This document shows, one piece after another, positions 14,800-20,131 of a DNA stretch of 48,595 nucleotides. The stretch is from positions 1 through 48,595 of the IMG/VR virus record IMGVR_UViG_3300011116_001003; one strand, written 5' to 3'. The stretch comes from a virus. Under the pieces are notes generated by a model, which was not told the origin of the DNA, ran no database searches, and saw only the letters and a list, made by a program, of their open reading frames with translations. Each line of letters opens with the position of its first letter. Position 1 is the stretch's first letter. A program made the position numbers and the translations under genes.

Positions 14800-14812
14800 G
14801 TCCCCCTCCCAT
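14800..14812 (+). repeat. Dispersed 13-bp motif, exact copy, running into a start codon
   Basis: The AT of GTCCCCCTCCCAT forms the first two bases of the uracil-DNA glycosylase ATG. Confidence 0.9.
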
Positions 14813-15512
14813 GCTCCCGATGACGTTGGTCCAGCACCCGTCGTCAGGTTCCTGCACCCTTCTCAATCCGAAGGGGCAGCCCTGTCCTCTCCTCTCGCGT
14901 CCCATCAAGACCCGCTGTGCCCAGACCGCCCACGTCCAGTCACAGCCCTTGCATCCCGCCACTCCGATCGTCATCATGATCGGCCGCAATCCGGGACTCG
15001 ACGAGGACAGCACAGGCCTTCCCTTTCAAGGCCGTCTATCCGAACGCTTCTGGTCCGCATGGCTTCCCGGCAGCAAGCTTCCGCAACTCGCCACGCTCTT
15101 CATCACCAACATCGCACGCTGCTTCCACGTCGACGGCCAAGCACCGAAGCCCGCCGTCTTCAATCTCTGCCGCACCCACCTGATCCCCGACCTGCACACC
15201 ATCAGTTCCATGGGAGGGGGACCCATCTTCCTGTTGACCATGGGTGCCGAAGCCACCACCCACACGTACGCACTCGGCGGTCAGCGAGCCATCACGTTGA
15301 CCAAGGCCTTCTCCCGCCAAGGCTACCCGCTCACCATCGACGGCGTCTCCGTTCACGTGTACTCCACGTTCCATCCCGCGTTCTGCGAACGCGAGGAACG
15401 TCACATCTACGCCGTCCAAGATCACCTTGCATTGCTGACCGACGCATTGCGTGGCACCCGCCCGCTCCCATCCAAACCCCAGTTCACCGCACCTCGGAGT
15501 CCCCGCCCATGA
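14811..15512 (+). CDS. Uracil-DNA glycosylase superfamily protein (family 4-like)
   Basis: A 233-aa protein with the ordered motifs of family 4/5-type uracil-DNA glycosylases: GRNPGLDED (about 58-66, the water-activating/uracil pocket motif), TNIARC (99-104) with C120 downstream as in the iron-sulfur loop, LTMGAEATTHTY (142-153), and the DNA-intercalating STFHPAF (185-191). C15, C25 or C36 with C104 and C120 could complete a 4Fe-4S cluster. The enzyme would remove uracil, or another altered base, from DNA. The ATG is fused to a dispersed motif and the gene ends in an ATGA overlap with the next. The substrate is uncertain; UdgX-like behaviour cannot be excluded. Confidence 0.8.
   Translation: MLPMTLVQHPSSGSCTLLNPKGQPCPLLSRPIKTRCAQTAHVQSQPLHPATPIVIMIGRNPGLDEDSTGLPFQGRLSERFWSAWLPGSKLPQLATLFITNIARCFHVDGQAPKPAVFNLCRTHLIPDLHTISSMGGGPIFLLTMGAEATTHTYALGGQRAITLTKAFSRQGYPLTIDGVSVHVYSTFHPAFCEREERHIYAVQDHLALLTDALRGTRPLPSKPQFTAPRSPRP
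15210..15222 (-). repeat. Dispersed 13-bp motif, exact copy
   Basis: Inside the uracil-DNA glycosylase gene, read as SMGGGP on the coding strand, in a surface-loop position between conserved motifs. Confidence 0.9.
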
Positions 15513-17836: not shown

Positions 17837-20131
17837 ATGAGTGACCCCACGTTCGCATCCGTCGACATCGAGACCTACGGAATCTGGCACAGCCTGCCCG
17901 CCCAGACGGTCTTCCACCCTCGCCGCATGTTCTTCGTCGACCGCATTCCGCTGGCCGACATGATCCAGTGCGTGTCCATCACGCTGCCCAAGAAGAACCC
18001 GCCCGACATCTCCATCGAATCCCTCGCCGCCATCGAGCCGGGCCCCACCCTCGTCTTCGAGCCCCGCTACACGACGGACCGCATCCACCTCACCAAGTGG
18101 CTGGCCCACCTCCGCACGTGGTGCGGCATGAACCTCGCGTTCGACACGCTGTGCCTCCGCAGCTTCTCGCCCCTGTTCCGTCACCACGTGACGCCCCGCA
18201 TCCAGCTGGTCGATCTCTCGGTCCTCAACTTCCTCGAGAATCCCAGCCGGCCCGAGAAGTCCCTCAAGACCATCGGCCTGGCCCTCAACACGCACACCTA
18301 CGAGGAGACCGCCAAGACCACCCGCTTCTCCGACCGCCACAAGATGCTCCGCTACTGCGGCGAGGACACCCACAACACGCTGGTGGACATCGCGACCCTC
18401 GCTCGTCGCATCCTCTCCAACCACCTGCTCAAGTCCCGCATCTCTCCCTACACCCTCCGCATGTACTCGGACACGCAGTGGTCCTGCATCCAGATGTCGG
18501 AGAACGGCGTGCCCATCCACCGCCCATCCCTCGAGTCCCTCGCACTTCGCCTCCACCGTCACGCCACCCACTGCGCACGCCGCTGCTCAGCCCTCAACCT
18601 CCAGCTCTCCGGCTCCGGTTCCCAGACCTCCAAGGACACCTTCATGAAGTCCATGCTGGAGGAGGCAGCGGTCTCCGATCCCACCATCCTGTCCAACCCC
18701 GTGCTCGGCTTCACGCCGACCGGCAAGCTCCAGATCTCCGAAGCCAACCGCGACCTCATCACACCCCACCTCAAGTCCCCACACCTCATCGAAGCATCAA
18801 ACCTGTGGTCCTCCTTCGTCCACACCGACAAGCTTCTCGGCACCTATTGCTTCCCGCTCCTGTGGCGTCGTCGTAAGATCGACAAGGCCAAGGTCTCCCG
18901 CAAGTCCATCCTGTGTCCCCAGTCAGGTGTCCCCCTCCCACTCCTTCCGGAGCCCCCATCATGTCTGAGACTCTCCGCCGAACCTTCGCTCTCCGATTCA
19001 TCGGAACCGCCGTCCTCCTCTGCATCGTCATGTCCCGCGTCGGCTACAAGTTCTGGTCCAGCACCGACTGGCTCTACCAGATCCTCTGGGGTGCCGCGTT
19101 CTTCTGGGGCTTCACGGCCGTCATCTGCCTCGGGGCCATCACGTTCGCACTCCCGGATGAGGAGGATCTCGACCCCCGGAACCCCCAATCGTGACGTCTG
19201 GCTGAGCCACACCTCGTGGTACATCGTCCCGTCCGCCATCAAGGACGAGGGCGGAGCCTCCGGCGGCACCGTCCAAGGTCGCATCACCTGCAAGGACGGA
19301 GCCCACCAGACCGACCCCGACTCCATCCAAGCCTGCCATCGTTCCCGTTGGCACGGCGGAGTCCTGCTGGGCGGCGACCTCTCCCAGATCGAGCTCCGCG
19401 TCCCCGCCGTCACCAGCGGCGAACCGCTCTACGTCAACGCCTTCGTCCGCAACGACGACATGCACACGGCCACGGCCCGCATGTTCTGGTCCGACGACGA
19501 GCTCTTCGCCCGCTACCCCATGCTGCGTGGCCAGCCGCCCAAGCTCTGGAAGAAGCTGTCCCTCGCCTTCGATCGACGCGAACGTCAGGTCGGCAAGCGA
19601 GGCAACTTCGCACGCGGCTACCGAGCCGGTGCCGACAAGATCCGAGCCTCCGTCCACGAGGACATCGGCGAGCTCCTGCCCATGGAGATCTTCGAGAAGT
19701 TCACGAAGAACGCCAAGCACGACACCCCCCTCCTGTGGGCCTACCAAGAACGGCTGATCGCAGAGGCCCGCTCCACTCGCCACATCATCCTGCCCATCAC
19801 CGGCCAGCAACGCCAGTTCGGCGGCACCGAGTACGACATCAACGAGATCTGCAACTTCCCGATCCAGACCATGGCGGGCAACGTCATGAACCGGATCCAG
19901 TACCGCTTCCGGATCCTGACCGAACGATGGTCCGACCACATCAAGGCTTACCTCAACATCTACGACGCCCTCAAGGTCGACTGCCGCTCCATGTCCTACG
20001 CCCTGCTGGCCAAGCGGAAGCTTCTCGAGTCCTGCGAGTGGGTCGCCAAGCACGACTACTGGGCCATGCTCCAAGATCACTACAAGCGTGAAGTTCCCTT
20101 GTCCATGGACTTCAAGATGCTGCAGGCCTAA
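17837..20131 (+). CDS. Family A DNA polymerase with 3'-5' exonuclease; ORF interrupted by an inserted gene
   Basis: The 3'-5' exonuclease has DxE (D10/E12 in SVDIETYG), the NxxFD element (GMNLAFDTL) and YCGEDTHNT. The polymerase has motif A GGDLSQIELRV (D514), a motif-B-like region (GKRGNFARGYRAGADK) and motif C (IYDALKVD). It would copy the phage genome. Between CPQS (about residue 363) and DVWL (about 453) lie about 88 Ser/Pro-rich residues that match no polymerase segment. In another frame this stretch encodes the membrane protein at 18961. The frame stays open, so the product is either a polymerase with a low-complexity insert between the thumb and motif A, or two polypeptides, with an ATG at 19157 available for the second. 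Confidence 0.85.
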   Translation: MSDPTFASVDIETYGIWHSLPAQTVFHPRRMFFVDRIPLADMIQCVSITLPKKNPPDISIESLAAIEPGPTLVFEPRYTTDRIHLTKWLAHLRTWCGMNLAFDTLCLRSFSPLFRHHVTPRIQLVDLSVLNFLENPSRPEKSLKTIGLALNTHTYEETAKTTRFSDRHKMLRYCGEDTHNTLVDIATLARRILSNHLLKSRISPYTLRMYSDTQWSCIQMSENGVPIHRPSLESLALRLHRHATHCARRCSALNLQLSGSGSQTSKDTFMKSMLEEAAVSDPTILSNPVLGFTPTGKLQISEANRDLITPHLKSPHLIEASNLWSSFVHTDKLLGTYCFPLLWRRRKIDKAKVSRKSILCPQSGVPLPLLPEPPSCLRLSAEPSLSDSSEPPSSSASSCPASATSSGPAPTGSTRSSGVPRSSGASRPSSASGPSRSHSRMRRISTPGTPNRDVWLSHTSWYIVPSAIKDEGGASGGTVQGRITCKDGAHQTDPDSIQACHRSRWHGGVLLGGDLSQIELRVPAVTSGEPLYVNAFVRNDDMHTATARMFWSDDELFARYPMLRGQPPKLWKKLSLAFDRRERQVGKRGNFARGYRAGADKIRASVHEDIGELLPMEIFEKFTKNAKHDTPLLWAYQERLIAEARSTRHIILPITGQQRQFGGTEYDINEICNFPIQTMAGNVMNRIQYRFRILTERWSDHIKAYLNIYDALKVDCRSMSYALLAKRKLLESCEWVAKHDYWAMLQDHYKREVPLSMDFKMLQA
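18929..18941 (+). repeat. Dispersed 13-bp motif, one mismatch, at a gene insertion junction
   Basis: GTCCCCCTCCCAC sits where the DNA polymerase coding sense ends and the inserted membrane-protein gene begins, 20 nt before that gene's ATG. Confidence 0.8.
18961..19194 (+). CDS. Small two-helix membrane protein nested in the DNA polymerase ORF
   Basis: Reads MSETLRRTFALRFIGTA and has 77 aa, with GGAG 9 nt before the ATG. There are two clear transmembrane segments (about 12-25, FIGTAVLLCIVMS; about 41-63, WGAAFFWGFTAVICLGAITF) joined by a short polar loop with an aromatic cluster (FWSSTDWLYQ). The tail is acidic (PDEEDLDPRNPQS). The size and topology fit a class II holin-like or other small inner-membrane protein. 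It lies wholly within the polymerase frame, where the polymerase translation is low-complexity, so this frame is the evolved one. It appears to be an insertion into the polymerase gene. Confidence 0.7.
   Translation: MSETLRRTFALRFIGTAVLLCIVMSRVGYKFWSSTDWLYQILWGAAFFWGFTAVICLGAITFALPDEEDLDPRNPQS

Follow-up and report, generated by a model that had tools for sequence, protein, structure and literature searches.

Results

A small gene lies within a family A DNA polymerase ORF

The window, the whole stretch of DNA analysed here, is IMG/VR virus record IMGVR_UViG_3300011116_001003 (48,595 bases), which comes from an uncultured phage. Its polymerase ORF shows no break in frame over all 764 codons (Table 1) and matches PF00476 (1e-8) and phrog_17 (1.2e-29). 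The C-half contains motif A (DLSQIELR), the O-helix sequence RQVGKRGNF and motif C (YDAL), and across 55 sequences the family A residues D10, E12, D103, D177 and D514 are invariant, with R583, K587 and D710 nearly so. An AlphaFold model of the full ORF (mean pLDDT 88.3, pTM 0.88) matches Bst, Taq and Klenow Pol I (Foldseek probability 1.00). With exonuclease and polymerase motif residues and a Pol I fold, the ORF is that of a family A DNA polymerase. In the O-helix region (window 19583–19640, residues 583–600), where the family reads RQVGKxxNFADLF, the window has NFARGYRAG, as against the usual NF..YG.

Table 1 Features of the interrupted polymerase locus in the window
Feature	Position	Strand	Basis or remark
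Family A DNA polymerase ORF, 764 aa	17837–20131	+	3'-5' exonuclease, thumb, palm, fingers
Polymerase N-half (exonuclease and thumb), to CPQS	17837–18925	+	Alignment with uninterrupted relatives to residue ~354–363
Insert, ~88 codons, Ser/Pro-rich filler when read in the polymerase frame	18926–19192	+	Missing from uninterrupted relatives; low pLDDT
Copy of 12-bp dispersed motif GTCCCCCTCCCA	18929–18940	+	In leader of nested gene
Shine-Dalgarno-like CCGGAG of nested gene	18947–18952	+	Sequence; same place in L087 and L088
Nested gene, 77 aa, +2 frame	18961–19194 (ATG 18961, stop TGA 19192–19194)	+	Codon usage, hydropathy, positional homologue in L087
ATG in polymerase frame; a separate C chain might start here, with poor support	19157–19159	+	
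Polymerase C-half (palm and fingers), from DVWL	19193–20131	+	Alignment with relatives, up to 63% identity

An earlier note on this DNA had placed the end of polymerase homology near CPQS and its restart at DVWL, and had proposed alignment with relatives lacking the insert as a check. That alignment agrees with the note: the relatives are collinear with the window apart from about 88 codons, and the stretch without a counterpart in uninterrupted relatives, between thumb and palm, is bounded at residues ~364–452. Measured between the counterparts of residues 354 and 456, the spacing is 13 codons in uninterrupted relatives such as L006 and 101 in the window, an excess of 88 codons. Residues 382–436 of the insert have pLDDT <50 in the AlphaFold model and are thus predicted to be disordered. 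The polymerase frame here is Ser/Pro-rich filler, as the note had said.

In the +2 frame of the insert lies an ORF for a 77-aa protein with two predicted transmembrane (TM) segments (approximately residues 8–27 and 41–65) and an acidic tail. The presence of a +2 ORF alone is not significant, because the same frame of this C-rich gene stays open by chance for 302 codons elsewhere, at 17968–18876. Within the insert, however, codon scores (mean log p per codon) calculated from the polymerase's own usage were −3.74 for the nested frame versus −4.75 for the polymerase frame, and those calculated from the usage of six other window genes were −3.75 versus −4.37. The best 17-residue hydropathy of the nested ORF is 2.12, whereas +2-frame windows of the conserved polymerase reach at most 0.66. 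The closest relative found, L087 (C-half identity 63%), carries a two-TM ORF of 68 aa in the same place behind the same CCGGAG, the two proteins sharing position and a weak sequence similarity (E=7e-4 in a single comparison). Hydropathy, codon usage and the L087 homologue together support the 77-aa ORF as a real coding sequence. Both frames are open and the inner one carries a coding signal, so that the locus is, by sequence, a putative nested gene pair, in keeping with the proposal that a two-TM gene was inserted without closing the polymerase ORF. Among 30 related records searched, the 77-aa protein was found in the window only. It matched no Pfam or PHROG family above noise, holin families included; nothing specific suggests a holin, and two TM segments alone are insufficient for such an assignment.

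The sequences at the edges of the insert had also been drawn to attention. A copy of GTCCCCCTCCCA does lie at the left edge and the near-repeats CCCCAGTC/CCCCAATC do flank the insert, but neither marks an insertion. There are 17 exact copies of GTCCCCCTCCCA in the window (2802, 4911, 12266, 14800, 15211, 17807, 18929, 21492, 22920, 26026, 26842, 28118, 31237, 35935, 39925, 43980 and 48361), where shuffles give ~0.8 even allowing one mismatch; they occur on both strands, within and between genes, and the next base is mostly T. This over-representation is real but specific to the window: the motif is missing from the sister records except for one copy in L090, which rules it out as an insertion mark, and since L087 lacks it the copy at 18929 is no marker of the insert edge. 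Another copy overlaps the start codon of a uracil-DNA glycosylase-like gene (window 14811–15512; PF03167, 5.3e-11). The near-repeats, offset by 266 nt (not a multiple of 3), were rejected as a target-site duplication or insertion scars, since, for positions drawn at random 265 nt apart, such a pair turns up 44% of the time. The left copy encodes PQS, residues common to L087.

Nested genes recur at four loop sites

Relatives were gathered by alignment-based scans of viral contigs, which yielded 78 distinct polymerase ORFs; searching viral contigs with one protein as query (the C-half, the N-half, the nested protein or the primase) returned no relatives, nor did a search of a bacterial genome collection. 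A later viral scan with N-halves added 16 further contigs, in which the polymerase is never split and the window's site never holds an insert. In-frame inserts of at least 30 residues in the 78 ORFs concentrate at a few sites, at core columns 60 (exonuclease), 199, 281 (thumb) and 366 (thumb/palm, the site of the window). The majority of inserts at these four sites hold an insert-spanning ATG ORF, without exception in the +2 frame (31/31), and the polymerase frame is open in every one (31/31). Codon usage supports nested ORFs at all four sites. At the window's site these ORFs encode 95 aa in L089 and in L015, 129 in L107, 124 in L120 and 140 in L137.

Plain inserts of 46–52 aa with no nested ORF occur in L116, L117, L122, L123, L130, L131 and L134, and the inserts of L020 and L033 likewise lack one. 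These served as a control: their codon usage favours the polymerase frame, opposite to that of the nested inserts. When the nested and polymerase frames were compared codon by codon between pairs of contigs, only close pairs such as L014/L112 were informative. Standalone homologues of most nested proteins were absent from the collected loci, except for genes between the L090 and L091 halves. An intein-like insert of 338 residues is present in the polymerase motif B region of L033 (2902–3915) and also in L209.

The polymerase frame is kept open across the family

In 24 representatives we replaced the codons of the nested gene within the insert by synonyms, drawn according to the usage of the polymerase concerned. 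About 52 polymerase-frame stops are expected on this basis and none is observed. The product of P(open) is ~10^-29.6, and ~10^-22.7 in a second control based on the frequency of stops in the conserved regions of these genes; such a product overstates the case because the representatives share ancestry and the set was limited to polymerases whose two halves share a single ORF, which excluded only four contigs. Strong single cases are L128 (0.0001), L014 (0.0015), L120 (0.0045), L124 (0.006) and L207 (0.006). The window has a P(open) of 0.45; nothing can be concluded from its open frame in isolation, and the argument rests on the family. Nor does stop avoidance explain the constant use of +2, since stop density is similar in both alternative frames. 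That the family retains an open polymerase frame argues for a single chain with disordered loops.

Sister polymerases are split at the same site

In the tree the window groups with L087, L088, L089, L090 and L091 (99/89). A gene is present at the window's site in all six members of this clade, and nested genes at this site require at least four changes on the tree. Three of these polymerases (L088, L090 and L091) are split at the window's site, and that of L139 is split at site 2. L088 has a stop within the insert and a C-half starting at GTG with GGAG, while in L090 1.7 kb with several genes separates the halves and the C-half starts at ATG. In L091 a GroES gene (1922–2254; PF00166, 6.5e-10) stands between the halves, the N-half stop lying at the GroES ATG and the GroES end carrying AAGGAG for the C-half ATG. 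Homologues of this GroES occur elsewhere in other contigs, from which we conclude that a pre-existing gene probably entered the L091 polymerase. In L139 (1524–2464) the split falls within the N-half, the parts being separated by a 176-aa gene and a TM/coiled-coil gene, and nested +2 ORFs are present at sites 1 and 4.

The window has a single ORF rather than a closed N-half ORF and a C-half with its own start. In L089 the C-half is without any start codon, and in L087 it has no ATG or GTG and one TTG ~125 nt upstream, far inside the filler, so that read-through is the simplest route to the polymerase in both. The order of nested and split states is not fixed by the tree; we infer a direction from nested to split.

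Discussion

We think it likely that the window's polymerase is one chain with a disordered loop, and that a 77-aa membrane protein is started independently from a gene lodged in that loop. A small gene equipped with a ribosome-binding site of its own would have become lodged, in the +2 frame, in a surface loop at the thumb/palm boundary. Ribosomes from 17837 would read through to give a single chain carrying the Ser/Pro-rich disordered loop of ~88 residues, and other ribosomes would initiate at ATG 18961 to make the two-TM protein; both products would thus be made and the loop tolerated. Codon choice in the nested gene would permit the polymerase frame to stay open. The same event would have been repeated at four loop sites within the phage family, and in some lineages the filler would have been closed later or would have arrived closed, the C-half then having its own start and the polymerase two chains.

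The earlier note had offered a tolerated insert or two chains, and both forms do occur among relatives at this site; one chain is the better-supported form in the window. It is rather unlikely, in our judgement, that the window's polymerase is made as two chains, with the C-half from ATG 19157 or from re-initiation near the nested stop and the open frame a by-product of C-rich codon usage. The split polymerases at the very site of the window, and that of L139 at site 2, favour this reading, as does the value of 0.45 for an open frame by chance in the window, and we count it against one chain that the nearest lineages beyond L087 (L088 and L090) are split there. However, the N frame has no stop, so that a full-length chain must form unless translation ends early. 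Moreover, ATG 19157, the only polymerase-frame ATG between the nested start and the palm, lies within the nested gene's tail, has no clear Shine-Dalgarno upstream and has no counterpart in L087 or L089, the two relatives in which a C-half start is distant or absent. A second, shorter C product from ATG 19157 in the window is possible.

The long chance opening in the +2 frame of this C-rich gene would allow the 77-aa ORF to be a similar accident, with the insert an in-frame disordered expansion like the 46–52 aa plain inserts. We regard this as highly improbable, given the strong preference of codon usage for the nested frame, a hydropathy far beyond any +2 window of the gene, the two-TM ORF of L087 with the same Shine-Dalgarno in the same place, the reversal of the codon signal in plain inserts and the identifiable GroES gene at the window's site in L091. 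Removal of the insert by intron splicing or programmed ribosome bypassing we hold to be extremely improbable. The polymerase homology is indeed interrupted, and group I introns are known from phage polymerase genes according to a passage in PMC10580990, yet covariance-model searches for group I and II introns gave no match in Rfam at gathering thresholds or at E≤10. Neither mechanism needs an open frame, yet one is preserved across the family, and in the split sisters the C-half starts on its own instead. For bypassing, matched take-off and landing sites are lacking except for the chance near-repeat. An intein in the window was rejected, the host frame being Ser/Pro filler with a codon score poorer than that of the nested frame, in contrast to L033; the earlier statement that intron and intein hallmarks are absent therefore holds.

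A single-chain polymerase with a gene lodged in its loop resembles several known systems in part. In the OM43 phages MEP401 and MEP402 a small ORF of unknown function separates the two ORFs that make up polA, and the authors considered an intron (PMC10580990); there too polA is interrupted by a small ORF, but the break is placed later in the gene, directly ahead of motif A, and the three ORFs are consecutive, with no nesting. Viral overlapping genes have arisen by overprinting (PMC8227390), and lysis genes of ssRNA phages are embedded in other genes (PMC7693330). Our locus shares with these a small, often membrane, protein in another frame of a larger gene, but the overlapped part of the host frame is in our case inserted filler and not an old protein domain. 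The recognisable GroES as intervening gene in L091 likewise argues for gene insertion rather than overprinting of old polymerase sequence. Phage MIJ3 has an intein with a split PolB (PMC6892783) and, like the intein-like L033 and L209 elements, is an example of insertion in a polymerase gene. The window differs in that no splicing signals were found in it and its insert is a gene for another protein, whereas the L033 insert is at motif B and codes in the polymerase frame. Both overlapping genes and a polA divided by a small ORF thus have precedents; a limited search of one open library found no description of small genes nested repeatedly in loops of a gene whose own frame is kept open, and the recurrence of such genes side by side with split forms looks new.

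Within this phage family, such loops may be where small genes repeatedly land or arise, in one fixed frame, with the open frame selected and the nested state a step to a two-chain polymerase, a wider proposal whose chances we consider evenly balanced. Annotation is liable to miss nested genes of this kind, which offer a possible explanation for cases of a polymerase split by a small ORF that have hitherto been guessed to be introns. The inserts mark four permissive loops in a family A polymerase. Within one gene family they form a natural series, from uninterrupted through plain insert and nested gene with open frame to a cut at the same site, and this series makes the splitting of an essential enzyme gene without loss of function directly testable.
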